Positions 6,126 through 46,322 of a DNA stretch of 64,000 nucleotides are shown one piece after another. Every line of letters starts with the position of its first letter. Within the stretch, counting starts at the first letter, position 1. The notes under the pieces were generated by a model. The model was not told where the DNA came from, made no database searches, and saw only the letters and a list, made by a program, of their open reading frames with translations. The position numbers and the translations under genes are program-made. The stretch is taken from positions 21,798,391 through 21,862,390 of the forward strand of contig CM032126.1 in assembly GCA_018894105.1 (NCBI GenBank), written 5' to 3'. This DNA comes from Jacaranda mimosifolia (taxonomy: Eukaryota > Streptophyta > Magnoliopsida > Lamiales > Bignoniaceae).

Positions 6126-6434
6126 TGTGTCGGCTCACGAGTCATGTGACACATTATTAGAGGAAAGCTATGATCACTACCTCGGGATAAGATACACTTT
6201 AATTTAAAATTCACTATGACATTGTTTCACGAGTCTTGGAATGATCATTATTGAATTTATAATTAAAGATTGATTGGTAGGTTCGACTTAACACCTAGTA
6301 GTATAGATGTCGCATGAGTTGTGGGTCTTTATGAAAAGTGAGGCAAAACACATTAGGGATTGCATAGAGATGTAATCAGTAATAGTTACCTACCTTAAGA
6401 TCATTAGTGGATGTCTGACGAGTCGCGGGTCCAC
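6126..6434 (+). other. Four leader stem-loops, loop type I (copia A)
   Basis: Four hairpins spaced 75-105 bp apart carry related apical sequences. H1: stem TGTGTC/GACACA, loop 6132-6147 GGCTCACGAGTCATGT. H2: outer stem CTTTAATT/AATTAAAG (6197-6268), loop 6223-6240 TGTTTCACGAGTCTTGGA. H3: loop 6308-6325 TGTCGCATGAGTTGTGGG with an imperfect stem. H4: stem GTGGA/TCCAC, loop 6412-6429 TGTCTGACGAGTCGCGGG. The stems are unrelated to one another; the loops are related. See the findings. Confidence 0.7.
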
Positions 6435-6601
6435 AAGTGATGCCTTTGACCTTGATTCTTACTAGGAAATACGATTTCCCGAATTCCTTAAAATTGTGGG
6501 AGCAAAAAGGCTTAAAGGACCATAATCATGTTTTCAATATCAAATTCAATCATATGCTTATATTCTCTTCTTTGCTTATGTAGATTTGTGAAATCTCAAG
6601 A

Positions 6602-7252
6602 ATGGCTAAACATCTACTAAGCATCATTTTGGAAACTAATAAACTAATTGAGCTGAACTATTGCGATTGGTTAAGAAAGTCAAAAATTGTCCTTGTCTTC
6701 GAGAAAAGAACATACGTCTTAACTCAAAGTCCACTAGATACCATTGGCGAAGATGCTGATCAAGAGGCCTATGAAACATTCATGAAATGGGTAGAGGATG
6801 GCCTCCAAACCCATTGCCTCATGATGGCATCCATGTCCAAGAGTTCCCAAAGTCCCATGAAAACATGAAAAGTGCTGCCGAGATTTATTTGAACCTATAT
6901 GAGTTGTATAGTGTGCAAACAAGGCACAAATGATACATGCTATCGAAACAGCTCTTTAAGACTATGATGATTGAGGGGTCTAATGTCCATGATCATGGTC
7001 TAAAGATGATTGAGCTTATTGAGAATCTCTATTTTGGATAATGACCTCTATGTGGATTTAATCCTCCAATACTTGTTGAGCTCATTTGACTAATTTGTGA
7101 TGAACTTTAACATGTCAAAACAAGAAGTCACAATCAATGAATTTTTCAACATATTGGTAACCGTGGAGGCGCAATGAGAAAAGGTAAGCTTTTAATGATT
7201 GCTTCCTCTTCCCAATCTAAAGGCCCTATGGGCAAGAAGAAAAGGGGGTAAA
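6602..7252 (+). pseudogene. gag: Copia A gag, interrupted
   Basis: Gag nucleocapsid-like polyprotein remnant. It opens with MAKHLLSIILETNKLIELNY, the family's conserved start (M-K-N-P-L-S-I-L-E-T-N-K-L), and continues with W..VEDGLQTHCLMMASMS. A frameshift near 6850 is followed by SAAEIYLNLYELYS and then a low-quality stretch with stops (HVKTRSHNQ). It ends in a lysine-rich part just before the zinc knuckle, where copia B is inserted at 7253. The ATG at 6602 matches the start used in all other copies. Confidence 0.8.
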
Positions 7253-9302
7253 TGTTTGAATAGTGTCCCACAGCTAATTAGATTGGCATATAAACTATTT
7301 TACTTGTGATACAATCTTGATTGAATGATATTCATATAAAATGGCCATCTTTATCTTATGTTTATTTTACTTCACTGGCATTTGATTGAAGCCCCTAAAT
7401 CACACATGACTATGGGACTTGGTCACACACTAGGTGGTGATCATGAAATAAGTATTACACAGTTGTGATTTTAAATATTCAAAGTCATAGAACCTTAAAA
7501 GACGGGGCTATCTAAGATTTGGATAGACTTGCACTAACTAGACATAAATCCAAGGAGTTGGATATTGCTCCATTTTATGAGCAATCCATGTTGGACATGG
7601 GTGTATGTTAGTTGGTGCTTGTTAGACAACAAGTGCACTAAAGACCCGCCCGGAGAATCTACTAAATAGCCGCAGTGGCAAGTTCTTTAGCTTACGCTAG
7701 TGCGTATAATTAGTCCTTAGGACTGAGGATCCATGGTAACCTTGTATTAAGGTCCTCATACTTTGATTCTTCACCAACCACGTAGCGGGTCATCTGGGTT
7801 GAGATTGGGTATGAGCTACTTAGCCATGGACATTTATGAGATCCAAGATGGGAACTGTCTCCTTGCCGTGAAGGGTGAGCGCATCTCCCATGTATTCTAT
7901 AATGATCGATTCCAAAAAATCCTGGTGCAAGGTACTATGACATTTGGAAAAGGAGTTTTCCAAAGATGAGGTCATGAAGAGGAATCGAACATTGGAATAT
8001 AGATAGTTATCGAGGCTATTAGGGAGCATAAGAAATGGAAGGACATTATTTGCATGGCAAGTGTAGAGCTAGAATGGTTCATCGAGACATATCCATTCAT
8101 ACAATTAGTTGGGCTCCATGGGCTTGTTGCTAGATATCGACTATGGAGATTAGGTACTTTCGATTAACGGACATTAATTGAAAGAGTTATTAGTTTAAAG
8201 GAGTTTAAACTAATGTGAATATTTTAATATTCAAAATATCACAATGAGTTAATAGCCCATGTCCAATGAATGTATAAACCTAATGGGTCGCGCATAAAAG
8301 CTTAAAGGATGTTCTTACTTGATGGGAGGAACTTTCTAAAAAGTTAAAACATTTTTCTAGGCATTTTTGGAGAGAAAATCGGTTGAATAAATTTTTGGTC
8401 ATCTTGGCTTGATTAATTTAATTGATTAATTAATCAAAATAATTTGAGGAGTTAAATTAGACCAATTAAATTAATGAGTTAATTTAATTGGTGCCATGTG
8501 GCAATTAATTAGTCATGTTAACTTAAAGAGTTAAGTTGACATATATTAACTTAAAGAGTTAAGTTAATTAACTTAAGGAGTTAAGTCAAACTAATTAATT
8601 AAATTAAAGAGTTAATTTAATTAAAGTAAGTATTTGAATTTTGGAGAAAAATTCAAATGAAGAGCTCATTTGAAATTAATTTAGAGTTAATTTGCATTAC
8701 ATTTCATAAGAGTTAATTTGATGGTGATTCACTAGATTCCCTTTTTCCCTCTAAAAGTATGACATTTCATGTGTTGAAAGTTTACACTCTCCAAACACTT
8801 TCCCTCTCCAATTCCTCTCCAAAAGGCCACCCCCTCACCTTCATCCTCAAGTGTTCTAGTAGATTTGAGGCTGAATTAGGACTCTCTTTCGATGTGTGGA
8901 CTATACATTAGAGGTCAAACACTTGGGGGACTTGGTGCTCTTTGGTGAACTGTTGTTGTCCAATAACGTTCATGGTAGATTTGAAGGACTTTTGAAGTTT
9001 TTATTTGCACAAACTTTTTACAGCATCTTCCTTGGTGTGTTTTGGTGCTCTCTGTAAATTTTGAGCAATTTTGGAGTTGTGGAAGACAGTTAACCATTGG
9101 CAACTTTCTGTTTTGTACGATTGATCCTTTGAAGAGTTCATGGGAATCTTTTCCTCCTACCTTTGGACTTAGCATTCAAGGTAAAATTTCTCAATCTAAA
9201 TCCTTATTAAATGCATCATTACATCCTTGGAGTGGAGTAGCTAAGTTATATATGGCCTTTTATGGTTTTATATTATGGATCCATAGCCTATTTTTACTTT
9301 CA
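7253..9302 (+). repeat. 5' LTR of copia B
   Basis: Starts TGTTTGAATAGTGTCCC and ends ...TTTTTACTTTCA directly before the PBS. It is about 2050 bp, slightly short because the palindrome/TATA block present in sister LTRs around their middle is not recognisable here (8690-8760). Confidence 0.9.
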
Positions 9303-9304
9303 AG

Positions 9305-9317
9305 TGGTATCGGAGCC
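9305..9317 (+). other. Primer binding site, copia B
   Basis: TGGTATCGGAGCC, two bases after the LTR. One mismatch to the initiator tRNA-Met complement. Confidence 0.85.
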
Positions 9318-11333: not shown

Positions 11334-11370
<37 letters not shown>

Positions 11371-12988
11371 ATATAGGGGCTAAAAGGTGTGATGCCAAGG
11401 TGGCATCACACCTCCCACGAGGAAAAGGGGCGGCCAACTTGCATCTTGCCAAGGTGGCAAATGCAAATCCAAATCTAATTTGAATTTCATTTGCATTTTA
11501 ATTACATTTGAAATCTAATTTCAAATTAATTAAAAGCTAATTCAAATGAACATTTTATTTGAATTTTCCCTCCAAAATTTGTTCTTCCCATTAATTAAAT
11601 TAAATATTTTAATTTAATTAATTAACCTTTGACTTAACTTATAAGTCAAACAAGCTCAATTCTTAAGCTTGAATTTTGTTAACTTAACTCTTTAAGTTAA
11701 CTTGACCAATTGATGGTCATATTGGCACCAAATAATTAACCCTTAATTATTGGTCTAATTTAACTGCTTAATTTAATTGATTAATTTAATACTTAAATTA
11801 ATCAAGCCAAAATTGACCTTCAAAATTGGCACCTAAAAATCGGTCCACTAGGAGACAATTTTCTAACACTTAGAAAATCTTTTCTCCATTAATTAGGAAG
11901 CTAATTGGCTTTTGTGTGTGACCCAATAGGGTCTACCATTCATTGGACATAGGCTCACAATTCCTTGTGACTTTTGAATATCATATGTTCAATTTAGTTT
12001 AAAATACTTTTAAACTAATCGACTCAATTCAATTAATCTCATTAATTGAAGAGTATCCAATCTCCGTGGTCGATGTCGAACCTCAAGCCCATGGAGCCCA
12101 ACTAATTGGCCGAAATGAATGTTTTGGAGAACTATTATAGCTCTACGCTTACCATGCAAATATGGTCCTTCGATCTCTTATCTCCCGAAAGAGTCATATG
12201 GCAAGATATTTGTTGATCCCTAATAGCTTCGATAGTATGTCTCTGTTCCCAATGTTCGATTCCCTTGTGTGACTTCATCTTTAGAAAACTCCTTTTTCAA
12301 ATTGTCACACTACCTTGTGCAAGGATTTCTTGGAGCCGATCATTATAGAATACATAGGAGATGCATTCGCCCTTCATAAAAGTGAGGAGTCAGATTCCAT
12401 CTTGGATCTCACAAACCTCCATGCCAAGTAGCTCATACCTAACCACAACTTAAAAGACCCACTAAGTGGTCAAGGAAGAGTCAAAGCATTTGGACCTGGC
12501 AAAAGGTTACCTTGGATCCTCAAGTTAGATGACTAATAATATGCACTAGCGTAAGTGAGAGAATTAACTACTATCGACTTGCCACTACGGCTATCTAGTA
12601 GATTCTCTAGGGGTCTTCAATGCCTTGTTCTCTAACAAGCACCCTCTAACATGCACCCGTATCTTATATAGTTGCTCATGGAATGGAGCAATATCCTATT
12701 CTTGGATTTATTCATCGTTAGTGCAAGTCTATCTAGATCTTAGATGCCTCATCTTGTAAGATCCTATGACTTGGAAGATTTAAGATCACGACCATGTGAA
12801 ACTTATTTCATGGTCATCAAACCAAGTCCCGTAGTCAAGTGTGATGTAAGGGCTTCATCCAAATACAAGTGAAGTATAACATAAGATGAAGATGGCCATA
12901 TAAAGAATATCATTCAATCAAGATTGTTTTACAAGGAAATAGCTTTTACAAGGCTAATCTAATTGGCTTGCCGGGCACTATTCCAACA
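10733..12988 (-). repeat. Solo LTR in the leader of copia B
   Basis: A 2256-bp LTR in minus orientation. It runs (on the plus strand) from TGAAAGCTAGTAAGG to CACTATTCCAACA. Flanking bases are TTAAT (10728-10732) and TTAGT (12989-12993), a 4-of-5 TSD. The leader sequence of B continues on both sides without loss, so this is a solo LTR left by LTR-LTR recombination. Confidence 0.9.
11338..11413 (-). promoter_or_regulatory. Expanded CT repeat, TATA and U3 palindrome in solo LTR
   Basis: A 27-nt segment (11389-11412 plus the flanking GG at 11386) forms a 12-bp perfect palindrome with a 3-nt centre: GGTGTGATGCCA / TGGCATCACACC. The adjacent TATCTATATATAG is the TATA region. A (CT)13 microsatellite at 11338-11364 is unique to this copy. 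Confidence 0.6.
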
Positions 12989-13544
12989 TTAGTTAATCCA
13001 TACCTTCTACCAGTAGTATGTGACATGAGATGCTGCCGCATTTGCGTGATGTCTCACGAGTTGTAGGCCATGCTTATGGAGGAAAGCTATGCTCACTTAC
13101 TTAGCATATGTTGCACTTTGGTTTCAAGCTTCCTATGGCATTGTCTCACAAGTTGTGGAATGACATAGAGCAGTTTTGAATCAATGATTGATTGGTAGGT
13201 CCTACTTAAATACCTAGTAGTGTAGATGTCGGACAAGTTGTGGGCTTATATGAAGAGTAAGGCAAAACATATCAAGGGTTGCATAGAGATGCAATTAGCA
13301 AAAGTTTCTTACCTTACGATTGTCTGTGGATGTCTCATGAGTTGTGGGTCCACTATAAGTCCTTTGGGCCTTGATTCTCACTGGGAAATGAGATTTTCCA
13401 AAATCCTTATGGGGTGAGGAATTTGATAAAATAGTGGGAGAAAAATATGCTTGAAGGTTCATGAGTATGTTTTCAATATCAAAATTCAATCAGATGCTCA
13501 TATTATCTTTTTTGCCTTTGTAGATTTTTGAAATTCCAAAAAAA
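12989..13544 (+). other. Copia B leader, second part with four type I stem-loops
   Basis: Leader continues to gag. It carries four stem-loops at the same relative places as in A. H1 loop 13050-13067 is TGTCTCACGAGTTGTAGG. H2 loop 13142-13159 is TGTCTCACAAGTTGTGGA inside a CTATGgCAT/ATGaCATAG stem. H3 loop 13227-13244 is TGTCGGACAAGTTGTGGG. H4 is 13331-13348, TGTCTCATGAGTTGTGGG, inside GTGGA/TCCAC. The four loops differ from each other by only one to four bases. Confidence 0.75.
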
Positions 13545-14293
13545 ATGGCTAAGAATCCACTCAACATAATTTTGGAAACCAATAAACTCACTGGGCCTAA
13601 CTTACACGATTGACTTAACCTCAAAATCGATCAAAGATTCCAAAAATGGATGTATGTCCTACATCATGGTGCTCCTAATCCCATAGGGATTAATGCGGAT
13701 CAAATGATAGGTGAAATGTTCACAAAAGAGTTGAGGATCACCTCCTAGCCTATATTCTCATGATGGCATCTATCAACTTTAATAATCTCACAAACAAATG
13801 AAACATATCTCAGTCTATTGCTTACAAGAGTTGTAAGGCAAACAAGGTATGAGAGATTTATGATACCCATGAGTGTTTTCAAGCTAAGATGGATGAGAGG
13901 TCATGTGTCCTCGACTATGGTCTAAAATTGATTAGGCTAGCTGAGAAGCTCTTCAACTTGGATGTAGTAATGGACAATGATCTCTATAGAGATTTGATCC
14001 TCACATTCTTGTTGAGTTTATTTGACCAAAGTGTTGATCTAGATGAAGACCAGCAATGACAAGGGCAAACCTCTAATGATTGTTTTCTCCTCCTACTCTA
14101 AAGGCTAGAAGAAAGGGGCAAGAAGAAGAAGTGTACTTTTTCAAGAGAAAACAAACATGTAAGGTGTCCAGTGGAGTAAAGGAGATTAATGAGTATAAAC
14201 TCGATGCTACTTGTTTCTGCTTTGGCAAGAAAGGCCAATGGAAGCGGTATTGCAAAGAATACCTTACAACCCTTGGGAAGGGTATGTACATTT
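13545..14293 (+). pseudogene. gag: Copia B gag, broken
   Basis: Starts MAKNPLNIILETNKLTGPN. Further homology is spread over frames: AGILMMASI-like, RSCVLDYGLKLIRLAEKLFN, NDLYRDLILTFLLSL, and finally a basic segment followed by the zinc knuckle CFCFGKKGQWKRYC (14215-14260). In the knuckle the second Cys is Phe and the His is Gln, so zinc binding would be lost. It ends at KGMYIL, where a solo LTR is inserted. Confidence 0.8.
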
Positions 14294-16520
14294 TAAAGTT
14301 AAGTATAGCACAAGGATCCAATGAAAAAGCACAAAAAATGCTAAATCAAACTCAGATACACTCAATAAAAGGATCAAATCATGCTTCTAATTTAGATTTG
14401 ATTGTAGAAAATTACCTTGATTGCTCAAAATTCAAGGGAGGAAGAAGACAAGGCTGAACTCTTCAAAGCTGTCTTCTCCTGGCACAGCGGGAATCCAACA
14501 ACATTTTCACTTTTAGAACACCTCTTAATTTGTTGAAATTTGGACAGCACCTCACCAACACATTGAGGAATATCCAATAAAAAATTCAGCAAAAAACAAG
14601 ATCGGCAAGTGCTTGAAAAATGCCTCCAAAGTTTCTGCCCCTGTAGTGGATCTCCAAGAGTAAAGCTATCCAAATATCTAGGCTCTAGTGAAATCATCCA
14701 CACACCCAAGGAAAGTCCCAATCAACCTCTAGAGAGTTGGAACTCTAGAGGAAGAATAAGTGATAAAGGCTGCATTTAGGAAGGGAGGAGAAGAAGGATG
14801 TGTGAAACTTCAACACTTGAGTGGATCATACTTTTTGGAAGGAAAAAGAGAATCTAGCATGAATTGTCTTGCATTGGCCAGCCACCTCTATTAATAGAGG
14901 AGGGAGGATGTGATGTAAGTTGGCATCACACGTCCATGAGGCTTGATGCCAACTAAGGAAACAAGTTGCATATGAAATGTTAATTTCACTCGTATTTGAA
15001 TTTCATTTGGAATCTTTATTTCATCTCATGAAATATCATCCAAATTAATTCTAAATGCACTTCAAATGAACTCCTTCATTTAAATTTGCCTCCAAAATTA
15101 ATTCTTCACATTAATTAAATTAACTCATTAATTTAATTATTTGGTCTTGACCTAACTCCTTAAGTCAACTAACTTAACTATTTAAGCTAGAAGGTGTTAA
15201 CTTAACTCCTTAAGTTAACTTGACTAATAAATGCTCATATGGCACCAATTAAATTAAGGAGATTAAATTAACTCCTTAAATTATTTTGATCAATTTAATA
15301 ACTAAATCAATCAAGCTAAAATGACCAAAAATTAGCCAACCATTTTCGTCCACCAAATCGATCACTAGGAATTTTCTAACTTTTAGAAAACTCCTTCCAT
15401 CAAATAGAACTTCCTTTAGGCTTTTGTGTGTGACTCATTAGGTTCTACCATTCATTGGACATGGGCTCACAACTCTTGTGGTATGTAGAATGTCGAAATA
15501 TTCACATTAGTTTAAACTCTTTTAAATTAATGACTCAATTCAATTAATCTTCGTTAATTGAAGAGTACCCAATCTCCATGGTCGATGTCCGACCTTAAGC
15601 CCACGGAGCCCAACTAATTGGCCTAAATGAATATGCTCTTGGTGAACCATTCTAACTTTACACTTGCCACGCAAATATGGTCTTTTCGACTCCTATCACC
15701 TGAAAAAGGCCTAGGGCAAGATATTTTCTGGTTCCCTAATAACCTTGATAACTATGTTTCTATTCCCAATGTTCAATTCCCCTTTATGACCTCATCTTTG
15801 GAAAACTCATTTTTTAAATACTACCTTGTGCAAGGATTTTGTAGAATCGATAATTATAGAATACATAGGAGATGCACTCGCCCTTCACAATGACGAGGAG
15901 ATGGATCTCATCATAGATCTCAAAAACCTTCATGTCTAAGTAGCTCATACCCAAATTCAACCCGGATGACCGACAGAGTGGTTAAGGAAGAGTCAAAGCC
16001 TGAGAACCTAAAAATAATATTATCATGGATCATTAGGCCTAAGGACTAATTATATGCACTGGCGTAAGCTGGAGAACTTGCCACTACTGACTCGCCACTG
16101 TGGCTATCTAGCGGATTCTCTGGGCAAGCCTTCAGTCAATTTGTTTTGTAACAAGTACCCATTAACATACACCCAAGTCTAACATAGATTGCTCATGAAA
16201 CGGAGTAATATCCAACCCCTTGGATTTATGCATTGTTAGTGCAAGTCTACCAAATCTTAGGTGCCATGTCTCATTGGATTCTATGACTTGGAATATTTTA
16301 AGATCACGACTGTGTAAGACTTATTTCATGATCACCACTCAGTGCGTGACCAAGTCCTATAGTCTTGTGTGATCTAAGGGATTCAACCAAATGTTAGTGA
16401 AGTAAATTGAGAATAAGATGAAGGTGGTCATTGAAATATGAATATCATTCAGTCAAGATTGTATCACAATTGAAGTAGTTTACATGCCAATTTAATTGAC
16501 TGCAGGGCATTATTCCAACA
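14294..16520 (-). repeat. Solo LTR between gag and protease of copia B
   Basis: A 2227-bp LTR, minus orientation, from TAAAGTTAAGTATAG to ATTATTCCAACA. Flanks CATTT (14289-14293) and CTTTT (16521-16525) form a 4-of-5 TSD. The gag-protease reading of B resumes immediately after it. Its U3 palindrome (around 14908-14932) is decayed and the TATA region reads TATTAATAGAGG. Confidence 0.9.
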
Positions 16521-18330: not shown

Positions 18331-18880
18331 TGGTCATTTTTCCCTTTAAACAAGATTCACAGGTAGGAAGGTTCTCAATGCTACTAACATTTAATGCTTT
18401 GAGAGTTTCTCATTTGCGCATCATATTCTTAGAGTTATGACCAAGTCTTGCATGCCAGAGAATGGCATCTTCTTGGATATCTAATTTTCTTTTACTTAAT
18501 TGAATGTGCATTAGTGAAGGTTGAGAATCAAGTATGTATAATTTATTTATTAATGTAACTTGAGCAATCAAAGAACTATTCTTTAATACTTTCAACTTCC
18601 CATTTGATATAGAAAAACAAATCCTTCATTATTAGGAATGGTAATTGAAATAATATTCTTTATAAGATGGGGTACATAATAAACTAGATCAAGTACAATG
18701 CAAGCATTGCCCAAGTTCAACTTGATAATGCCTTGGAAAGTGGCCACAATTCTTGCTTCATTTCCTAAGCGGATGATCATATCCCCTTCACGAAGACACT
18801 TTCTTCTTTCCATCCCCTGTAACAAATTACAAAGGTGAGAACCGCATGCGGTATCAAATACCCATGTGGAAGAATAGTTT
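18331..18880 (-). pseudogene. pol: Copia C protease and GAG-pre-integrase
   Basis: A protease remnant (HAVLTFVICYRGWKEES region, then LRLGNEARIVATFQGIIKLNLGNACIVLDLVYYVPHLIKNI) is followed by LYILDSQPSLMHIQLSKRKLDI and the LWHARLGHNSKN zinc module. It is frame-shifted at about 18600 and 18820. The catalytic DTG is not readable here. Confidence 0.75.
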
Positions 18881-19726
18881 TCATGTGCACTTCAATAAAG
18901 TACATACCCTTTTCAAGGGTTGCAAGGTAAGCTTTGCAATTTCTTTTCCAATACCCTTTTTTGCCAGAGTGGAAACAACTAGCTTTGGTTCTAACTGTCT
19001 TCTTAACCTTCCTAGAACTCTTCTTGGGTTGCTTCCCTTTCGAGGAAGAACTTTTCTTCCTCTTACCTCGCTTTCTAGGACCCTTAGGGTTCTTCGACTC
19101 AGAGGAGGATGCAAGCATAAGGGGCTTCTCCTTTCTCATAGTCGTCTCCACGGTCACAAGCATATTGGTCAATTCGTTAATCATAATATCTTGCTTGGAC
19201 ATATTGAAGTTCATAACGAATTGATCATAGGATGGTGGTAATGACTGTAGGATCAGATCCACGTAAAGGTCATTGTCCATGACCACATCCAACTGTCTAA
19301 GCTTCTCGATGAGTCCAATCATCTTGAGGCCGTGATCATAGACATTTGACCCTTCACCATCCTTGCCCTAAAGAGCTCTTTAGACAAAGCGAACTTTTTG
19401 TGTCTACTTTGTACAATATACAACTTTTGCAAGTGTATATAGATCTCTCAATCATGTTTCTTGTGCTCATGAGTCTTTTGGAGCTCGTTAGATATGGATG
19501 CCATCATAACACACCTCACTTGTAGATCATCATCTACAAATTTTGTGAACATTTCACGTTGTGCGTCGGTGGCGTCATCACCAAGTGTGTCCACGAGACT
19601 TTGATCAAGGACGTATGTTCACTTTATAGAATCAAGAATGATTTTAAGGTTTCTTAACCAATCGTGGAAGTTTGGCCCGATTAGTTTATTGGTTTCCAAA
19701 ATGCTTGTGAGTGGATTTTTAACCAT
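18881..19726 (-). pseudogene. gag: Copia C gag
   Basis: Start ATG at 19726 (MVKNPLTSILETNKLIGPNF). It continues with QRETFTKFVDDDLQ-like and MASISNEL-like blocks (broken), then an open frame MIGLIEKLRQLDVVMDNDLYVDLILQSL... MNFNMSKQDIMINELTNMLV, a basic linker KRGKRKKSSSSKGKQPKK, and the zinc knuckle CFHSGKKGYWKRNC. In the knuckle the second Cys is Ser and the His is Tyr. Confidence 0.85.
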
Positions 19727-21678
19727 TTTCATTGAAGATTTCAAAAATCTACAAAAGTTGAAAAAAGAGTATAAGCATGTGATTGATTTGATATTAAAAA
19801 CATGTTTATGGTCTTTCAAGCATGTTTTCCTCCCACTATTTTATCAAATCTTTCACCCCCTAGAAGAATTCGGGAAATCATATTTCCTAGTGAGAATCAA
19901 GATCCTAAAGACTTGCAAGTGGATACCAGTGACCGGATGTATATCCACGAGCAATCTAAAGGTAAGCAACTTTTGCTAATTGCATCTCATGCAATTCTTG
20001 ATATATTTTGCTTCACCATTTCATGTAGATCCCCTGATGGACGACAACTACATTACTTGGTGTTAAGTCAAACTTACCAATCAAACTTTGATTCGAGATG
20101 GGCGCCAAAGCATCCATCGTGACTGAATGTATAATGTGTGGGTGTTCCCAAATCAAAGGTGCATCTCATGCAAAGTGTACGGTCACAACTTTCCACCTAA
20201 GTATGACCCCCGTGACCGGATGTATATCACACAAAGGTGGTAGCATCGTCATGCCACATACTATTGGTAGAAGGCTTGGATTAATTAAAACTCTTTTAAT
20301 TTGTATCCATTTTGACTTAATATTTGAAACGCACTTAGACATTATAAGTGGAAGGTTTTTGCTTGCAAAGATCTCATCATTTTATTATCTTATTTAGGTT
20401 TTCTAAATCTTAAACATGCATCTCATACATCAACAGGATATGGAAAGCTTAAATATGTAAATGTGCCTAGCATCCTCCTAAGGTGGGATGACCATGAGCC
20501 TAACTAAGTGGTGCACTTAGAGCCATATATGCACCACCTAGTTGATTTTATGTGGGTTGATTAAATCTAGCTACTACATTATTGTATCCCATACATTGAT
20601 GGATCTTCAAAAGTCTCCATTCCTCCATTGGTCTCCATTACTCCATGCAACATTTATATGAATAGAAAATCCTCACTCTTAGAGATTCTACTCTCATAAC
20701 TTTTACAAGGTAGAAATAAAAAGGCATGCAAGCCTTAATTTAATATAACCCATTTCAACCACTTGAAACAATTAAAATCAATATTAAAGGCTCATGATCA
20801 TCCCCATTCAACAATTAACTGAACAATAAATAAATCTAGAATTAACAATTAATTCTAATAATTAATGCTTATATCATAACCAAATAATTGAACAAGCATA
20901 ACATTTATGCCATAATTGGAAGACAAACTTTAACCAATTTTCAAAGGCATTAAAAAATGTAACATAATATTGAGAACTTGCACAACATTTGTGTGTCTAC
21001 TATTTGTTGTGAAAAAAATATTTCAAGCACAAAAGGAGTTGGAAAATAGGCTCAAGACTTACCAAAACCTCAAAACAGAGGCTATCGCCTAGCCTGGGCC
21101 AATGGCTGGGCAGGCCACGTGCACAGCGCCCAACCAACACCCACCAAAGCTAGGTAGCCCCCTGTTTTAGGGTTTCAAAGTGCGTCAAGCCATTTTCCAA
21201 TCAACTTTCATGCACCAATAGTTTTAGTACATGTTCCCAACATTAAAACACACATTATGGATGAATTTTCAGATTTAAAACCTCAATTGAAAAATGAAAA
21301 TTCAAGTGCTCTATCATGCCTCCAAAAAATTAGAAAAAACTAGAATCATATTCTTCAAAATCTCCAATACAACTCCAATTAAATTGGATTTAAAAATGAC
21401 CAAAACTCTTTTGATCAAATATCAACATGCTATATTACCATATAACATCAATAAATGCTAAATCAACATTAAACATTTATCACTATGAATTGAAACATAC
21501 TAAAATATGAATCAACACTTAAATCACATAATAGCATGCTTTCAAGTCATCAAGCAATAGAGCCACAAGCATCATCAGCAAAATACTCCAATCCTTCACT
21601 TGGATCAAGTATTTGGTGATGTTGATCAATTCATCACATGAATCAATCAAACAATAATCCAAACCATAGCATGAAAAA
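19727..21678 (-). other. Copia C leader with type III stem-loops
   Basis: A 1.95-kb non-coding leader (minus sense). Stem-loops in plus coordinates: 19919-19948 (GTGGA/TCCAC, loop TACCAGTGACCGGATGTATA), 20023-20053 (ATGTAG/CTACAT, divergent loop), 20085-20158 (CTTTGATT/AATCAAAG, apex CATCGTGACTGAATGTATA) and 20201-20232 (loop CCCCCGTGACCGGATGTATA). A long hairpin lies at 20502-20543 and a GC-rich patch at about 21070-21165. Confidence 0.75.
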
Positions 21679-21691
21679 GGCTCTGATACCA
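21679..21691 (-). other. Primer binding site, copia C
   Basis: Minus strand TGGTATCAGAGCC, an exact match to the initiator tRNA-Met complement and the best-preserved PBS in the window. Confidence 0.9.
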
Positions 21692-21693
21692 CT

Positions 21694-29960: not shown

Positions 29961-30640
29961 TAAATCTCTTTAATGTATGGGGTTTGGGATAGCCCCAGCA
30001 TCCTCGTAGATCTATCTCTACAGATACATATTCCCTATAAGTAGGATGCTTCTCCTAAATCCTTCGTGGACATAAAGCACAATAAACTGTACTGAACTCC
30101 CACTAGCCTTCTTGTACACACATAGTTCATACACATTTTTGATAAAGCCAAATGATTTGACCATTTTTTCAAAACATATGTTCCAATTCGGGATGCTTGT
30201 TTGAGTCCATAAATAGATCTTTGGAGTTTGCAAACCTTTTGCTCACTCTCCTTGGATGTAAAACCTTGTGGTTGCTCTATATAGATTTCTTCTTCAATGT
30301 CACCATTGAGGAAAATGGTTTTCACATCTATTTGCCATATCTCATAGTCATAATATGTTGCTATGGCAAGTAGAATCCGAATAGACTTAAGCATAGCGAT
30401 CGGTGAAAATGTTTCCTCAAAATTGATACCGAGTCTTTCAGTGTAACCCTTTGCCCCTAGTCATGCATTAAAAGTCAGCACTTCTATATTTACTCCAAGC
30501 TTTCGCTTATAGATCCACTTACAACCATAGAAAACTATTCCTTTTGGTGGATCTACCAAAGTCCATACTTTATTTGTGTACATGGAATCCATTTTGTATC
30601 TCATGGCTTCAAGCTAATGTCCCAAATCTATGTCTAACAT
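29961..30640 (-). pseudogene. pol: Copia D reverse transcriptase, internally deleted
   Basis: Reads MLKSIRILLAIATYYDYEIW, DVKTIFLNGDIEEEIYIEQP, KVCKLQRSIYGLKQASR, VYELCVYKKASGSSVQFIVL. At the catalytic YVDD position the frame gives LYVHE and then jumps to the MKDLGEASYV block, so about 25-35 residues after the first Asp are deleted. RT could not function. Confidence 0.85.
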
Positions 30641-31530
30641 AGTTTCCTCGTAGGTCTTTAGATCATCATCTTATTGGTCCATCTTATGAAGAAATCCAAA
30701 CCTTTCTGGTTTTTTCTTGATTCGGCCTGACCTATATAGAGGTTGTGTACTAGGCTCTCATTGCTCACTTGTTTCCACTGCTTGTGGGATTTCTTGATCA
30801 TTTTGAACTTTATTAAGTTCAACAATAATGCCATTTCTATCTAATAGAAATTCTTTTTCCAAAAAGTGGGCATTCCTTGAATCAAACACCTTTTGTTCTG
30901 AGGGATCATAGAAATAATAGTTCGTGGACTCTCTAGGTTGTCCCACAAACTTGCACAAGGTGGATCAACTATCCAACTTATCTCCTACTGTTCGTCTCAC
31001 GTAAGCGGGAGATCTCTAAACTTTGAGATATTGGTAAGAGGGTCTTTGCCAAACCATATCTCATGTGGAGTCTTTAGGACCGACTTTGTGGGTACTATAT
31101 TTAGTAACTTGGCCGCCGTAAGTAAGGAGTATCCCCAGAAGGATATAGGCGCATCAGGAAAGCTCATCATGGAACATACCATGTCTAACAAGTTACAGTT
31201 TCTACTTTTGGCTACTCCATTGTGTTGGGGTGTCAGGGTGGAGTCCATTGAGAAAGAATCTCATTCGCCTTTAGATAATCCAAGAATTTGGTGCTCAAGT
31301 ATTCTCCCCCTCGATCCGATAGAAGAGCTTCAATATTTTGGCCTAGTTTCTTTTCTGCTTCATTCCTATACTCTTTGAACTTTTCAAAGGCTTTGAACTT
31401 GTTTTTCATAAGAATCACGTGTCCGAACCGACTAAAGTTATCGGTAAAGGTGATGTAGTAGGAATAGCTTCCTTTCCTACTAACTCTTAGTAGTCCACAA
31501 ACATCCGTATGGATCAAATCCAAGAGACTT
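30641..31530 (-). pseudogene. pol: Copia D integrase
   Basis: MDLIHTDVCGLLRVSRKGSY, ITFTDNFSRFGHVILM, then LLSDRGGEYLSTKFLDYLKA and TPQHNGVAKSRNCNLLDMVC. The second catalytic Asp is kept; the Glu of GVAERRN is Lys, as in C. Then NIVPTKSVLKTPHEIWFGKD and the C-terminal NYYFYDPSEQKVFDSRNAHF. Two overlapping frames (31233-31523, 30997-31248) show one frameshift at about 31240. Confidence 0.85.
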
Positions 31531-32150
31531 GTCCTACAAAATGAGCTTTGGTTATTTTTCCCTTTAATTAAGATTCACAAGTAGGAAGATCTTCAATGTT
31601 ACTAACTTTTAGTGCTTTGAGAGCTTCTAACTTGTTCATATTATTCTTAGAGATATGACTAAGTTTTTCATGCCAAAGAATGGCATTTTCTTGGATATCT
31701 AATTTTCTTTTACTTTTGAGAATCAAGTATGTACAATCCATTTATTAATGTACCTTGAGCAATCGAAGAACCATTCTTTAATGCCATCAATTTCCCATTC
31801 GATATAGAAAAATCAAATCCTTCATTATCTAGAACGAGAATTGAAACAATGTTCTTAATAAGGTGGGGTACATAATAAATCGGATCAAGTATAATGTAAC
31901 CATTCCCTAAGTCTAACTTGATGACACCTTGGAAACTGGCCGCAAATCTTGCTCTATTTCCTAAGCGGAGGATTATATCCCCTTCAAGAAGACTCTTTCT
32001 TCTTTCCATCCCCTGTAACAAATTACAAAGGCGAGAATCGCATGCGGTATCAAATATCTCTGTGGAAGAATTAGTCATCATGTGCACTTCAATAAAGTAC
32101 ATACCTTTCTCAAGGGTTGCAAGGTAAGCTTTGCAATTTCTTTTCTAATG
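31531..32150 (-). pseudogene. pol: Copia D protease and GAG-pre-integrase
   Basis: Open frame 31710-32102: IFDTACDSRLCNLLQGMERR, where the aspartic-protease triad DTG is DTA, then ILRLGNRARFAASFQGVIK, YYVPHLIKNIVSILVLDNEG and GTLINGLYILDSQK. The zinc module of the pre-integrase (HAxLGHI...) follows in another frame at about 31560-31700. Confidence 0.8.
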
Positions 32151-32915: not shown

Positions 32916-34872
32916 TTTGTTTGAAGATTTCGAAAAACTACAAGAGGCGAAAAAAGAGTATAACATGTGATTGAATTTGATATTAAAAACATGTTTATGG
33001 TCTTTCAAGCATGTTTTCCTCCCACTAGTTTATCAAATTCTTCACTTCTAGAAGAATTTGGGAAATCATATTTCCTAGTGAGAATCAAGATCCTAAGGAC
33101 TTGTAAGTGGACCTTTGCTTCAAGTGCCATCCACAAACAATCGAAAGGTAGGCAACATTTGCTAATTGCATCTCATGTAATTCTTGATATATTTTGCCTC
33201 ATGTTTCATATAGACACCCCATTTCGAGTGCATCTATATTACTAAGTGTTAAGTCATACCTGCCAATCAAACTTTGATTTGAGATGGCTCCATGTCATCC
33301 CCTGCTTCAAGTGTCAATGCATGGATGTTCTCAAATCAAAGATGCATCATATGCAAAGTATATGCTCACAACTTTCGTCCTAAGTGTGACCCCTATTTCA
33401 AGTGCCATCACACAAATTCGGTAGCGTTGTCTTGGCATATACTATTGGTTGAAGGCTTGGATTAATTAATATTCTTTTAATTTGTATCCATTTTGACTTG
33501 ATATTGGAAAAACACTTAGACATTTTAAGTGGAGGGTTTTTGCTTGCAAAGATCTCATCATTTTATCGTCTTATTTAGGTTTTCTACATCTGAAACATGC
33601 ACCTCATACATCAATATGATATGAAAAGCATAAATAAGTAAATACGCCTAGCATGCTCCCAGGGTGGGAAGACCATGAGCCTAACAAAGTGGTGCACTTA
33701 GAGCTATACGTGCACCACCTAGTTGATTTTATGTGAACTGATTAAATCTAGCTATTACATAATCGTATCCCATATATTCATGGGCCTTCAAAAGTCTCTA
33801 TGCCTCCATTGGCCCCCATTGCTCTATGTAACATTTACATGAATAGGAAATCTTCAGTGCTAGTGATTCTATTCTCTTAACATTTACAAGGCATCAAGCC
33901 TCAATTTAATACAACCCATTTCAACAACTTGAAACAATTAAAATCAATATTAAAGGCTCATGATCATCCCCATTCATTCATCATCCATTGAACAATTAAA
34001 TGAACAATAAATAAATCTAGAATTAGCAATTAATTCTCTCAATTAAATGCGTATCTCATAAATAAATAATTGAACAAGCATAACATTTATGCCATCATTG
34101 GAAGATTAACTTTAACCAATTTTCAAAGGCATTCAAAAATGTCAAACATAATTTTGAGAACATGCATAACGTTTGTGCATCTACTATGTCTAATGCAAAA
34201 ACATTTCAAGCACAAAAGGAGTTGAAAAAAACACTCAAAACTCACCAAAACCATAAAACAGGGGCTGCCGCCCAGCCTGGGCACACAACTGGGTAGGCTG
34301 CATGCACAACGTGCGCACAGTGCTTGGCCAGCGCCCGGCTGTGGCTCGACCAGCCCCTCTTCTAGGGTTTAAAAGTGAGTCAAGTTATTTTCCACTAAAC
34401 TTTCATGCAACAATAGTTTTAGTACATGTTCCCAACACTAAAACACACATTATAGATGATTTTCAAGATTTAAAACCTCTATTAAAAAAGGGAATTCAAG
34501 TGCTCAATCATACCTTCAAAAATTTAGAAAAAGCTAGAATCATTTTCTTCCAAATCTCCAATACAACTCCAATCAAATTAGATCCAAAAATGACCAAAAC
34601 TCTTTTGATCAAACATCAACATGCTATATCACTATATAACATCAATAAATGCTAAATCAATATTAAACATTTATCACTATGAATTGAAACATACTAAAAC
34701 ATGAATTAACACTTAAATCACATAAAAACATGTTTTCAATTCATCAAGCAATACAACCATTAGCATCATCAAGCAAACACTCCAATCCATCACTTGGATT
34801 AAGTATTTGGTGATATTGATCAATCTATCACATGAATCAATCAAACAATAATCCAAAACATGGCATGAAAAA
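32916..34872 (-). other. Copia D leader with four type II stem-loops
   Basis: Plus coordinates. 33107-33134: GTGGA/TCCAC, loop CCTTTGCTTCAAGTGCCA. 33208-33239: ATATAGA/TCTATAT, loop CACCCCATTTCGAGTGCA. 33272-33341: 13-bp stem CTTTGATTTGAGA / TCTCAAATCAAAG with apex CCCCTGCTTCAAGTGTCA at 33299-33316. 33384-33413: GTGTGA/TCACAC, loop CCCCTATTTCAAGTGCCA. A long hairpin lies at about 33683-33724 and a GC-rich patch at 34260-34365. Confidence 0.85.
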
Positions 34873-34885
34873 GGCTCCTATACCA
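34873..34885 (-). other. Primer binding site, copia D
   Basis: Minus strand TGGTATAGGAGCC, two substitutions from the initiator tRNA-Met complement. Confidence 0.8.
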
Positions 34886-34887
34886 TT

Positions 34888-38327: not shown

Positions 38328-38342
38328 ATCTCCCACTTGCCC
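38328..38342 (-). other. Polypurine tract, copia F
   Basis: Minus strand GGGCAAGTGGGAGAT next to the 3' LTR. Confidence 0.7.
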
Positions 38343-38344
38343 TA

Positions 38345-42200: not shown

Positions 42201-43020
42201 CCTTTTGGGTTGCTTCTTGATTCAGTCAAACTCTCTCAGAGGTTGTGTGTAAAGCTCTTGGTGCTCACTTGTTTCCACTGCTTGTGGGATTTGGTGGTCA
42301 TCTTGAACTTTATCAAGTTCAACAACAATGCCATTTCTATCTAATAGAAATTTCTTTTCCAACAAGTAGGCGTTCCTTAAGATAAATACCTTCTGTTCGG
42401 AGGGATCATAAAAATAATAACCTAAAGACCTTTTTGGCTATCCCACAAACTTGCATAAGGTGGATCTACTATCCAACTTGTCTCCCACTAACCGCTTGAT
42501 GTGAGCGGGAGACCCCCAAACCTTAAGATAATGGTAAGGGGTGCTTTGCCATACCATATCTCATGCAGTGTTTTTAGCACCAACTTTGAAGGTACTATAT
42601 TTAGTAACTTCACTACTGTTTCTAAGCATATTTCCAAAATGATATAGGCACATCGAAAAAGCTCTTCATGGAATGTAGCATGTCCAACAAGGTATGGTTT
42701 CTCCTCTTAGGTACTCCATTGTGTTGGTGTGTACTGGGTGGCGTCCATTGAGAGAGAATCCCATTCTTCTTTAGATAATCTAAGAATTTGGTACTTAAGT
42801 ATTCTCTCCCTCGATTCGATCTAAGAGTTGTAATACTAAGTCCCTTTTGCTTTTCTACTATTCTGATACTCTTTGAACTTCTCAAAAGCTTCAGACTTGT
42901 ACTTCATAAGATACACATGTCCGAATCGACTATAATCATTGGTGAAGGTGATGAAGTAAGAATAGCCTCCCCTCACACTAACTTTTAGTGCGCCTCGAAC
43001 ATCCATATGGATCAAATCCA
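42201..43020 (-). pseudogene. pol: Copia F integrase
   Basis: MDLIHMDVRGALKVSVRGGY, ITFTNDYSRFGHVYLMKYKS (43021-42836), then ITTLRSNRGREYLSTKFLDY, where the catalytic Asp of SDRGGEY is Asn and GG is GR, and THQHNGVPKRRNHTLLDMLH. The two sites that can be judged both look inactive. C-terminal linker with stops to 42201. Confidence 0.82.
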
Positions 43021-43660
43021 AAGTACTTGTGGTTCATTCCATTTGTCCCACAAAAGAAGCCTTGGTCATTTTTACCCTCAAACAAGATTCACAAGTAGGA
43101 AGGTCCTCAATGCCACTAACATTTAGTGCTTTGAGAGCTTTTAACATGTTCATCCTATTTTTAGAGATATGTCCAAGTCTTGCATGCCATAGCATGGCAT
43201 CTTCTTGGTTATCTTATTTTCTTTTACTTGATTGAATGCACATTAGTGATGACTGAGAATCCAAAAATGTATAATCCTTTGTTAAGTGTACCATGAGCAA
43301 CTAAATAACCCGTTCTTTAATGCCTTCAATCTCCTATTTGATGTAGAAAGATCAAATCCTTCTCTATCCATAACGCAGATTGAAATAATGTTCTCGACAA
43401 TATATGTTACATAATAACAAGGGTTTAGTACAAGTATGGAGTTCCCTAAATCTAACTTATTGTACGCCTTCGGCTTTAGCCACAACTTTTGCTCTTTAGG
43501 CAAGGCGGTAGATCATATCTCCATCATTAAGTTTTATTCTTCTTTCTATTCTTTGTAACCACTTACAAAGATAAGAACCACATGCGATATCACATATTCA
43601 TGAGGAATTTATCCTTACATGTATTTTAATAAAGTACCCACCCTTCTCAAGGGTTGCAAG
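43021..43660 (-). pseudogene. pol: Copia F protease and GAG-pre-integrase
   Basis: Fragment 43503-43282 (KLWLKPKAYNKLDLGNSILV, CYYVTYIVENIISICVMDRE, GFDLSTSNRRLKALKNG) and a following HARLGHISK / LPTCESCL-type zinc module on the minus strand at about 43080-43200. Frame breaks at about 43280 and 43500. Confidence 0.75.
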
Positions 43661-44388
43661 GTATTCCTTGCAATACTATTTCCGATGGCCTTTCTTGCCA
43701 AAGTAGAAACAAGTAATATCAACTATATCCTCTATAATCTTCTTAACTTCTCCAGACACCTTTAATGGTTGCCTTCCCTTAGAGGATGAACTTTTCTTCC
43801 TTTTACCTCTTTTTCTAGCACCCTTAGGTCCTATAGACTTGGAGGAGGATGCAAGGATCAAAGGTTTGTCCTTGCCACGGTAATCTATATCTAGATCAGC
43901 ACTTTGATCAATAATACTCGGCGAGGATATGAGGATCAAATCCTCATGGAGATCATTGTCCATCACTATGTCCAAGTTGAAGAGCTTCTCCAAGCTTAAT
44001 CATCTTTGGACCTTAGTCGATGACACATGACTTCACATCCATTATAGCATGAAAAATCTCCTTTGACAACATGAACTTCTCATACCTTATTTGCTTTTAC
44101 AACTCTTGTAAACTTTAACCAAGGTATTATTCATGTGTCCTTGAGACTTTTGAAGTTTGTAGATGCCATCATGAGATTATGGGATAGGAGGATCCTTAAC
44201 CTAATCCATGAACTTTTCACATGTCTCTTGATCTACATCAATCCCTATGGGATTAGGAGCACCATGATATATGACATTTATCTGTTTCTTGGAATCTAGA
44301 ATGATTTTTGAGGTTAAGTTAATCGTGGAAGTTTGGCTTGATTAGTTTTTTAGTTTCCAAAAATAATGTTGAGTGGATTTTTTGCCAT
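43661..44388 (-). pseudogene. gag: Copia F gag
   Basis: Start ATG at 44388 (MAKNPLNIIFGN-like, frame-shifted). Open piece 43993-43676: MEKLFNLDIVMDNDLHEDLI ... DKPLILASSSKSIGPKGARK, KRKKSSSSKGRQ, ending in the zinc knuckle CFYFGKKGHRK, whose second Cys is Phe. The FNMSKQEVTIN block is deleted. Confidence 0.8.
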
Positions 44389-46322
44389 TCTTGAGATTTT
44401 GCAAATCATTAAAGGGGAAAATGAGAATATAAACATGTGTTTGAAAATTGATATTAGAACATATGTTCATAGTCTTTCAAGCATATTTTTCTCCCACTAT
44501 TTTATCAAATCCTTCACCCCCTAGAAGAATTCGGGAAATCATATTTTATAGTGAAAATCAAGACCCTAAGGACTTGTAAGTGGACCCCCGCTTCGAGTGC
44601 CATCCACAAACAATCGAAAGATAAGCAACATTTGCTAATTGCATCGTATGCAACTCTTGATATATTTTGCCTCACTCTTCATGTAGATCCCCTTCGAGTG
44701 CCTCTACATTACTAGGTGTTAAGTCGGACCTACCAATCAAACTTTGATTTGAAATCGCTCCACAACATCCCCCGCTTCGAGTGCCAATGCATGGGAAGCC
44801 TGATATCAAAGGTGCATCATATGCTAAGTATGTGACCATAGCTTTCCACCTTAAATGTGACCCTTGCTTCGAGTGCCATCACACAAAAGATGGTAGCATC
44901 ATTATGCCACATACTATTGGTAGAAAGTATAGATTAATTAAAACTCTTTTTAATTTGTATCCATTTTGACTTGATATGTGAAAGCATTTAGACATTCTAA
45001 GTGTAGGGTTTTTCTTGCTTGCAAAGATCTCATCATTTTTATCTTCTTATTTAGGTTTTCTATATCCTAACCATGCATTTCATACATCAATAGGATATGA
45101 AAAAAATAAATAAGTAAATGCGCCTAGCATGTTCCTAGGGTGGGATGACCATGAGCCTAACCAAGTGGTGCATTTAGAGCCATAGGTGCACCTCCTAGTT
45201 GATTTTAAGTAGGTTAATTAAATCTAGTTATTACATAAGTGTATCCTATACATTCATAGGTCTTCATGCCTCCAATAGTCTTCTTTACTTCTTGTAACTT
45301 TTACATGAGAAAGAAATCCTCACTCCTAGTGATTCTATTCTCATAACATTTATAAGATGGGAATTAAGAGGCACGCATGCAAGCCCCAATTTAATACAAC
45401 CCTTTTCAACAACTTGAAACAAATAAAATCAATATTAAAGGCTCCTGATCATCCCTATTCATTCATCATCCATTCAACAATTAAATGAACAATCAATGAA
45501 TCAAGAATTGAAATTAAATTCCAACAATTAAATGCTTATCTCATAAACAATTAATTGGCCAAGTAAAAATAAGCATAACATTTATGTAAATTTTTGCACA
45601 AAATTGGAGATTAACTTGAACAAGTTTCTAAAAGCAATAAAAAATGTCAAACATAATTTTGAGAACTTGCACAACACTTGTACATCTATCTAGCATGATT
45701 TAGTTCACTTTTGATCACATAAAGAACACAAACACACCATGATTTATGTAAAATAAAAACTGGCCACTGCTAGCCAGCCACTGTTCACAGCCGTTGGGGA
45801 GCTTGCCTAGTTTCAAGGTTAGCACTAAGTTAAGTTGATTTTGGATCAATTTTTGTGAACCAAAAATTTAGGACACCTCCTAAACACTAAATCACACATT
45901 ATAGATGAATTCCAGATCCAAAACACCTTTTAAAAATGGAAATTCAAGTGCTTAATCATGCTTCAAACTTCAAGTTTCAAGTAAGAATCACATTCTTCAA
46001 AAATCTCCAACAAATTCCAATCAAATTGGATCCAAAAATGACCAAAACACTTTAAGGCCAAATGTAACATGTTGTATCAACAAATAACATCAACTGATGC
46101 CAAATCAAAATTAAATATTAGCAACTATGAATTAAAACATACTAATCATATGAATTAACACTTAAAACACATATTAGCATGCTTTCAATTCATCAAGCAA
46201 AGGAGTCACATACAAAATCATCCAAACACTCCAATACATAGGTTGGATCAAGTATTTTGAGATTTAGGTCAACTCATCACATGAATCAATCAATCAAAAA
46301 ATCCAAATCATAGCATGAATTA
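44389..46322 (-). other. Copia F leader with four type II stem-loops
   Basis: Plus coordinates. 44580-44607: GTGGA/TCCAC, loop CCCCCGCTTCGAGTGCCA. 44683-44707: GTAGA/TCTAC, shorter loop TCCCCTTCGAGTGCC. About 44750-44810: outer CTTTGATTT / paired remnant ATATCAAAG, apex CCCCCGCTTCGAGTGCCA. 44856-44883: TGTGA/TCACA, loop CCCTTGCTTCGAGTGCCA. Two of the four loops are identical over 18 nt. Long hairpin at 45159-45200; GC-rich patch reduced (45765-45830). Confidence 0.85.

Follow-up and report, generated by a model that had tools for sequence, protein, structure and literature searches.

The window, that is, the whole 64,000-nucleotide stretch of Jacaranda mimosifolia DNA that was analysed, contains five copies of a Copia retrotransposon family, designated elements A, B, C, D and F. 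LTR-type repeats adjoin the leaders of these elements; a TGG-type primer site was looked for at the leader start and none was seen. The assignment to Ty1/Copia is based on a Retrotran_gag_2 domain in element C (gag fragment at 18777..19367, minus strand) and on the position of the integrase ahead of the reverse transcriptase in element D, in which a Pfam scan showed Pol_BBD at 31710-32144, rve at 31233-31574 and RVT_2 at 30035-30460, all on the minus strand. Three of the eight pieces scanned, the gag start of element D among them, gave no Pfam match. A search of the window against Rfam at the gathering score gave 0 matches, and a known RNA family is therefore disfavoured.

The leader carries four hairpins (H1 to H4) at fixed positions, with a median spacing of 92, 85 and 103 nt. 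Each consists of a position-specific outer stem, an asymmetric internal loop, an inner stem of 3-4 bp and a tip of 3-5 nt. The first-pass annotation had described apical loops of about 18 nt sharing one sequence within an element. These words are present at the places given, but they are not plain loops, as an inner stem lies inside each: the 18-20 nt 'loop' is a nested hairpin made of a 5′ bulge, the 3-4 bp inner stem and the 3-5 nt tip, and the shared unit is thus an apical stem-loop. On the plus strand, the hairpins of element A (6126..6153, 6216..6248, 6302..6332 and 6407..6434) and of element B (13044..13073, 13133..13168, 13220..13251 and 13326..13353) belong to the AGT-tip class. The minus-strand elements D (33384..33413, 33290..33324, 33208..33239 and 33107..33134) and F (44855..44884, 44760..44794, 44681..44709 and 44580..44607) carry hairpins of the AAG class; in both, the second interval is the inner part of H2, which in D is enclosed by a 13-bp outer stem, and the inner stem of H3 is shorter in the F copy. 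In element C, also on the minus strand, the GTCA tip is found in H1 (20201..20232, with a TATACA bulge), H2 (20110..20139) and H4 (19919..19948), and H3 (20023..20053) has a differing word with the inner stem TCC/GGG and ATCA, which is also present in C-like loci.

The likeness of the words was evaluated in the five window elements and in 221 other copies taken from this plant's genome, where exact hairpins number 514 at site 4 and 795 at site 1. Within single window elements, words compared from site to site were 0.76 identical, compared with 0.40-0.53 for text at least 18 nt away, whereas words at one site across elements were only 0.57 identical, compared with 0.71-0.83 for their flanks; the observed word value was reached by 1 of 200,000 label permutations. 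The leaders of C and D, for example, are identical at 424 of 486 positions (87%) outside the words and at 30 of 71 (42%) within them. A second sample was picked by stem 4 with the word ignored, from the first 100 listed of the 514 matches (C1, C2 and the start of C3); as an exact stem and TTACAAGTC were required, A- and B-like leaders fall outside this stem-4 sample. Four readable sites were found in 90 of its 96 copies, and for every one of the six site pairs the words resembled each other more closely within elements than across them (0 of 2000 permutations per pair). No within-element effect was seen for text 40 nt upstream of the words in the same sample (n = 88; lowest count 53 of 2000 permutations). 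The results confirm that loops exceed neighbouring sequence in within-element likeness, both in the window elements and in the stem-4 sample, and that the shared-loop observation is real and stronger than first claimed. Variation within a class is concentrated at CG positions, as expected from the CG to TG/CA decay proposed earlier, and G/A variation occurs at other positions as well.

The common tips are AGU, AAG and GUCA, and the rarer tips AGG, ACA, GUUA, GAUA, UGUA, UACA and AUCAC are each represented by one to seven fetched copies. Sites 1, 2 and 4 were concordant in 73 of the 82 copies typed in the stem-4 sample (first 100 of 514 matches) and in 171/183 typed copies overall, whereas all four sites were concordant in only 52/80 copies of the stem-4 sample, the usual exception being site 3. 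The earlier proposal that the loop is swapped at all four sites together consequently holds for sites 1, 2 and 4 and often fails at site 3; genome-wide, the three sites shift together and site 3 only in part. These finer-class counts are stricter than a pooled count in which TCA-type loops, including the C-like site 3, were lumped and which gave 88 concordant copies and 1 discordant copy (89 fully typed among 110). GTCA elements bearing AGT at site 3 made up 8 of the 96 copies in the stem-4 sample, and AAG at site 3 was found in two different contexts, suggesting that it has two origins. The deviating site 3 of element C, noted in the first-pass annotation as three matching loops of four, is real, but decay is not its cause, since a related odd word occupies site 3 in 29/29 C-like loci. 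Intermediate copies were also found (L165 and L175, with an AGT tip at sites 1 and 4 and AGG at sites 2 and 3). As a prediction test, five loci were taken solely for their rare site-1 tips. The rare tip recurred at sites 2 and 4 in all five, with A instead of G as the first tip base in L230, and at site 3 in two of the four readable loci.

Coupled tip change would also be accounted for by RNA-RNA contacts, in which the tips pair mutually, with a second genome (a kissing dimer) or with a partner elsewhere in the element, and the available text of PMC7599994 indicates that kissing through two G-C pairs is possible for a retroviral leader hairpin. The self-complementarity of four words was, however, no better than that of shuffles (0.33 to 0.72 of shuffles were at least equal), which disfavours self-complementary kissing loops. 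A complementary partner in the 1.2 kb to each side of the leader is likewise disfavoured, because among 5- and 6-mers that could pair with the AGT, AAG or CTCG-GTCA-CGGG tips none was enriched in its own class (none at p < 0.01, 65 loci). RNA-RNA contacts are accordingly regarded as decidedly improbable.

Compensatory change in the outer stems exceeded all 300 shuffles for H1, both H2 stems and H3; the outer stem of H4 is nearly invariant and showed no covariation beyond 300 shuffles. The first-pass reading, in which one recognition word is presented at several sites, has therefore survived both points on which it was staked beforehand, the excess of loop likeness over neighbouring sequence and compensatory change in the stems. 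Different compensated inner stems were found under one tip within single elements (L217, L168 and L229). The inner stem of 19- and 20-nt words is too uniform to beat shuffles: the pairing counts for 19-nt words were 106/128 at site 4 (shuffle mean 102.4) and 76/100 at site 1 (75.3), and those for 20-nt words were 115/144 at site 4 (115.0) and 111/136 at site 1 (109.9). The leader of element F alone folded no better than shuffles (z = -0.78), and the covariation term of RNAalifold on the five window leaders was unfavourable (+3.25). Judged by covariation and fold, the leader contains a predicted conserved structured RNA, as a packaging signal would.

Enhancer or insulator sites occur in the leaders of some animal retroelements, and the words might likewise be DNA-level protein sites. 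CACGAGTCGTG is almost a DNA dyad, and at inner pair 1 of the 87 distinct 18-nt site-4 words the opposite strand fits better (82 vs 69), although this probably comes from decayed C-G pairs. At pair 2, however, the same words have A-U in 39, U-G in 39, U-A in 6 and a non-standard pair in 3, so that the pair is standard in 84/87 in the sense reading and in 47/87 on the other strand; the U-G pairs fixed in the AAG and GTCA classes can form only when the sequence is read as sense RNA. Over all four inner pairs, standard pairs number 293 in sense and 249 in antisense of 348, and the sense strand also gives better pairing in the outer stems of H1, H2 and H3; the inner H2 stem is strand-neutral (817 sense vs 819 antisense of 897 cells). 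Given that the inner pairs favour the RNA sense, DNA-level binding sites are disfavoured and seem very improbable.

Homogenisation without function, by which template switching or gene conversion spreads one word to the other sites, predicts likeness within elements too. Hairpin multiplication does occur (L084 at site 3, L113 at site 1), and shared private letters exceeded permutation at sites 1-4 of the C-like GTCA group (0/500) and at all three pairs of the F-like GTCA group (1, 0 and 0 of 500), with a weak excess for AGT sites 1-2 (24/500). The excess in the GTCA groups is ambiguous, however, because these groups mix subfamilies, and no private-letter excess was seen at any pair in the AAG group (55 copies) or at two of three pairs in the AGT group (57 copies). 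Word identity moreover ends at the loop boundaries, the flanks staying unrelated, and one tip on different compensated stems within a single element does not look copied. Homogenisation alone is thus considered quite unlikely.

Two body types follow the leader. The CD type, to which the gag fragment of element C belongs, has a coding gag: one frame has 0 codon columns stopped in over half of 31 copies, and one codon phase is more diverse (0.334 vs 0.20 and 0.23). The FB type, represented by the post-leader bodies of element F (43350..44395, minus strand, gag region) and element B (13540..14500, plus strand), has stops in every frame, with 15, 23 and 18 codon columns in the three frames carrying a stop in over half of 28 sampled copies and a flat diversity of 0.16 across codon phases. 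An earlier body count covered 25/28 FB and 23/31 CD loci, and its repeat took all loci. AGT tips were found on 4 CD and 6 FB bodies, AAG tips on 6 CD and 3 FB bodies, and GTCA tips on 24 CD and 19 FB bodies; the leader tree requires 16 changes of body and 4 changes of tip. For these counts and the tree, L078 and L079 were left out (broken leaders); L017, L029, L071, L075, L076 and L081 are without a body type, and L196 (without a leader match) and L001, L009 and L059 (the window copies themselves) were dropped. L075 and L076 are 99.8% identical, with no other pair at 98%. For the three common tips, the signal thus appears to be kept by non-autonomous relatives, and FB bodies would presumably borrow Gag. 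Among the functions listed in the first-pass annotation, packaging or another step in trans is favoured, since tips are common to gag-bearing and gag-less bodies, and simple homogenisation is disfavoured.

We estimate a probability of roughly 0.55 that the tips form a multivalent RNA tag, with the machinery of the element, most likely Gag at packaging, as its reader in trans. The leader RNA would fold into the four hairpins at fixed positions, and their tips would act as a recognition tag on the genomic RNA, bound by a single trans-acting reader, most likely the nucleocapsid region of Gag. As every site would have to match one reader, a shift of reader or tag would be followed by the sites one by one, site 3 being the least bound. 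Non-autonomous elements would have to carry the tag that belongs to their protein donor, and their parasitism could drive tag turnover. For 34 copies, the trees of gag and of the leader gave equally few tip-class changes (5), and element D bears AAG tips, yet its gag is nested among GTCA elements, implying that the tip and the first 1 kb of gag do not correspond one-to-one; comparison of the two trees left Gag coevolution and leader history indistinguishable. The tips might instead be read by a host factor (an RNA-binding protein, an export factor or a small RNA), differing tips reflecting differing readers or escape. Short, diverse tips at repeated sites may fit multivalent host binding, but many tip versions on one scaffold in one genome would be unusual for a single host reader, and this explanation is unlikely. 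A more extended interpretation can tentatively be put forward, namely an RNA self-recognition code in which a fixed four-hairpin scaffold presents an exchangeable 3-5 nt address, about 10 addresses coexist in one genome, each is common to autonomous elements and gag-less parasites (as seen for the three common ones), and packaging conflict drives turnover across the sites.

To our knowledge, little is known in plants of how LTR retrotransposons distinguish their own RNA from other RNAs and how gag-less parasites keep pace. In MoMLV, SL-C and SL-D are two adjacent hairpins with one common conserved tetraloop, a repeated loop motif. Retroviral Psi leaders of this kind resemble the present one in having several hairpins in the leader, which serve packaging and loop-loop contact according to the available text of PMC7599994; unlike the two-hairpin set of MoMLV, this Copia family has four spaced hairpins and about 10 tip versions in one genome. 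In barley, the gag-less member of the BARE1/BARE2 pair of Copia subfamilies has retained conserved signals for dimerisation and packaging and enters the particles of its gag-bearing partner, as stated in the part of PMC3735527 compared here. A gag-less Copia that has the same tips as a gag-bearing counterpart is found here as well, but matching hairpin tips or signal replacement between subfamilies are not described in that part of PMC3735527. Sireviruses are similar in that they are plant Copia elements with conserved non-coding motifs; compared by description only, the available text of PMC2829016 says nothing of leader hairpins whose shared loop changes. A literature search likewise returned no feature of four leader hairpins with a shared, subfamily-changing loop. 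One genome offers hundreds of natural tag variants on a constant scaffold, and its gag-bearing and gag-less elements have tips in common, so that the specificity of RNA recognition could be tested by binding assays and comparative genomics. The queries used gave no relatives in viral contigs or in bacterial and archaeal genomes, and a protein search matched three proteins, from Handroanthus and Paulownia.

Twenty hairpins (H1 to H4, at sites 1 to 4) were located with exact coordinates in the window, four in each leader of the Copia elements A, B, C, D and F, the leader being the segment between the LTR end and gag. The loop words of these hairpins, about 18–20 nt long, were found where the first-pass annotation had quoted them. 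The five leaders were aligned, and a four-site frame was slid along the alignment to compare identity at words and flanks. The result showed that different sites of the same element had an identity of 0.76 at the words vs 0.40–0.53 at least 18 nt away, whereas the same site in different elements had 0.57 at the words vs 0.71–0.83 in flanks at least 18 nt away. When the element labels of the words were shuffled, the observed value was reached in 1 of 200,000 trials. C and D formed the clearest pair: outside the words, 424 of 486 positions were identical, against 30 of 71 within them. For D and F, the corresponding counts were 395 of 486 and 55 of 69.

Further leaders were collected from the 707-Mb Jacaranda mimosifolia genome. 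A 401-base B leader query, which contains words, gave 3682 first-look candidates; scores were obtained for the best 40, and B-like leaders were taken (7 + 20). Another 29 C-like, 29 F-like, 20 A-like and 20 D-like leaders were taken by likeness, using queries placed between words 3 and 4 whose overlap with a word was 8 bases for C and for D, 5 for F and 0 for A. The stem-4 sample was chosen by a search for the hairpin-4 stem in which a gap stood for the word (514 exact matches genome-wide; 0 for the reversed stem pattern), and is independent of the word but requires the exact stem plus its 3′ flank. Of its first 100 matches, 3 were already in the set and 97 were added; one of these (L196), without a leader match, was dropped, leaving 96 copies. 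The final 226 rows include no overlapping pair and none at least 98% identical, save L075/L076. Four sites were readable in 90 of the 96 copies, and in these, for every site pair, words of one element resembled each other more than words of different elements did, to a degree reached by 0 of 2000 permutations (sites 1 vs 4, 0.836 within and 0.664 between). The within-element effect was absent from a control 40 nt upstream of the words (n = 88). These values, with those from the window, bear out the claim that loops resemble each other within an element beyond neighbouring sequence.

The words, previously described as plain loops of about 18 nt, are a real shared unit, but each is itself a nested hairpin, with an inner stem and a tip of 3–5 nt inside the outer stem. 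The AGT class reads TGTCT-CACG-AGT-CGTG-GG, the AAG class TGGCA-CTCG-AAG-CGGG-GG, and the GTCA class TGGCA-CTCG-GTCA-CGGG-GG or TATACA-TCCG-GTCA-CGGG-GG; rarer tips (AGG, GTTA, GATA, ATCAC, TGTA, TACA and ACA) were seen in one to seven fetched copies each. Among the 87 distinct 18-nt words of site 4, inner pair 2 is A-U, U-G or U-A in 84, and would be standard in 47 if read on the other strand. With all four inner pairs counted, site 4 has 293 of 348 cells paired in sense (shuffles: mean 248.6, maximum 263) vs 249 in antisense; site 1 has 240 of 296 (shuffle maximum 219) and site 3 has 265 of 384 (shuffle maximum 243). The inner stem of the 19- and 20-nt words was too uniform to beat shuffles.

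Outer-stem covariation was computed on 130 rows not selected via the stem pattern. Paired cells numbered 682 of 762 in H1 (shuffles at most 648), 817 of 897 in the inner stem of H2 (at most 785), 1449 of 1615 in its outer stem (at most 1418) and 853 of 902 in H3 (at most 845), with 58, 81, 69 and 34 cells changed on both sides, respectively. The nearly invariant H4 had 608 of 648 paired (shuffles at most 610), and both sides had changed in 6 of its cells. Pairing thus exceeds shuffles in H1, H2 and H3 but not in H4. The inner stem of H2 showed no preference for one strand in the 130 rows. RNAalifold recovered the four hairpins from the five leaders, but with an unfavourable covariation term (+3.25); folded alone, the D leader was better than shuffles (z −3.36) and the F leader was not (z −0.78). 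Across the 226 rows, the sites lie a median of 92, 85 and 103 nt apart (quartiles within 1 nt). Past hairpin 4 and before gag, the five leaders all have one more short conserved hairpin, of GGAAAT/ATTTCC type (alignment columns 415–429). In C, which has GTCA tips, the loop of this hairpin matches that of D and F, which have AAG tips, so in these leaders it does not follow tip class.

Using deamination-tolerant templates derived from the same data, sites 1, 2 and 4 could be typed in 82 of the stem-4 copies and agreed in 73; among the 80 typed at all four sites, sites 1, 2 and 4 agreed in 71 and all four in 52. In the full 226 rows, sites 1, 2 and 4 agreed in 171 of 183 typed, and where four sites were typed the figures were 165 of 177 for sites 1, 2 and 4 and 120 of 177 for all four. 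The proposed concerted swap of the loop at all four sites thus holds for sites 1, 2 and 4 but often not for site 3, the commonest discordant site. Most C-like GTCA elements have a TCC...GGG word at site 3 (28 rows in which the other three sites are GTCA), and in eight stem-4 copies that are GTCA elsewhere, site 3 has an AGT word. In two intermediates (L165 and L175) the tip is AGT at the outermost sites, 1 and 4, and AGG at sites 2 and 3. L217 has AGG at all four sites, on inner stem CTCG/CGAG at site 1 vs CACG/CGTG at site 4. In a prediction test, five loci were picked solely for rare site-1 tips among the matches listed of 795 exact site-1 matches. The rare tip recurred at sites 2 and 4 in all five, including L230, where A replaces G at the first tip base; of the four loci with a readable site 3, two had it there as well. 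Single hairpins have also been multiplied: hairpin 3 is tripled in tandem, with an AGT-type word, in the otherwise GTCA element L084, and site 1 of L113 is enlarged with its word repeated. L086 has a C/D-like leader backbone and C/D-type gag, yet AGT tips at all four sites, which suggests that its whole tip set changed independently.

Such matching could also arise if one word were copied to the other sites. However, the AAG tip at site 3 occurs in two contexts, mostly TAGAT...GTGTCTA in 52 D-like and mostly TAGAG...GGATCTA in 14 F-like leaders, and equal tips stand on different compensated inner stems; these sequence patterns suggest selection for matching and not copying. Private letters common to different sites, compared with permutation, were negative for AAG at three site pairs and for AGT at two, borderline for AGT at one (24 of 500), and positive for C-like GTCA (sites 1-4) and F-like GTCA (all pairs), two groups that mix subfamilies. 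Copying is disfavoured relative to selection for matching but may have occurred. Kissing loops were unsupported in a self-complementarity test of four words, as was a complementary partner in a search within 1.2 kb on either side of the leader.

Two kinds of sequence follow closely related leaders. The C/D body, which contains Copia gag, had no codon column with a stop in more than half of 31 copies in one frame, and 15 and 31 in the others; one codon phase was more diverse (0.334 vs 0.20 and 0.23). In 28 copies of the F/B body, majority-stop columns occurred in all three frames (15, 23 and 18) and diversity was flat over codon phases (0.156–0.164). A smaller set gave 18/31/0 in 23 C/D and 24/18/13 in 25 F/B copies. 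Because of these stops and flat diversity, with gag in the C/D kind, the F/B body is judged from its sequence to be non-coding for gag, and F/B elements are taken as non-autonomous. Both bodies occur with AGT (4 C/D, 6 F/B), AAG (6 and 3) and GTCA tips (24 and 19). A leader tree of 62 copies requires 16 changes of body (mean with shuffled labels 20.6, minimum 15) and 4 of tip (mean 17.9, minimum 14); the nearest C/D leader has an equal tip for 26 of 28 F/B leaders, tip and leader history being correlated. Since gag-less elements keep a signal common to gag-bearing ones, action of the signal in cis through gag translation is unlikely. The same logic applies to BARE2, a parasite that lacks gag and is packaged by BARE1 (PMC3735527).

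At the level of sequence, the comparisons establish covarying structure, matching tips, class turnover and tips common to both bodies. We consider it slightly better than an even bet (about 0.55) that the four hairpins form a multivalent tag for recognition in trans, the likeliest reader being Gag during packaging. A putative single reader, most probably Gag, would bind the tips at that stage, perhaps cooperatively over several sites, and parasitism may drive tag turnover. Against a Gag reader, tip class changes 5 times on the gag tree of 34 copies and just as rarely on the leader tree, and D has AAG tips, yet its gag is nested among GTCA elements on the gag tree. Searches of the open-access literature, with subscription papers mostly outside it, listed no Copia leader in which several hairpins have a common loop that changes; we file the feature among retroelement packaging or recognition hairpins, a known kind. 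If a reader were shown to discriminate the tips, they would form a recognition code, for which we know of no close precedent.

A normal tRNA 3′-end primer site begins with TGG. The sequence that follows the LTR end (window 12989–13012 in B, and the homologous leader starts of A, C, D and F) has no TGG at its start. It might pair with an internal (half) tRNA, as has been reported for some Copia lineages (PMC6317226). A second abundant LTR-like repeat of about 1.6 kb, at window 11359–12988 and about a dozen further places, does not align to the LTRs of A, C, D or F and abuts the B leader, where it may have split B's own LTR near the LTR 3′ end. Several of its copies end in TTCCAACA, which is TGTTGGAATAG on the other strand.
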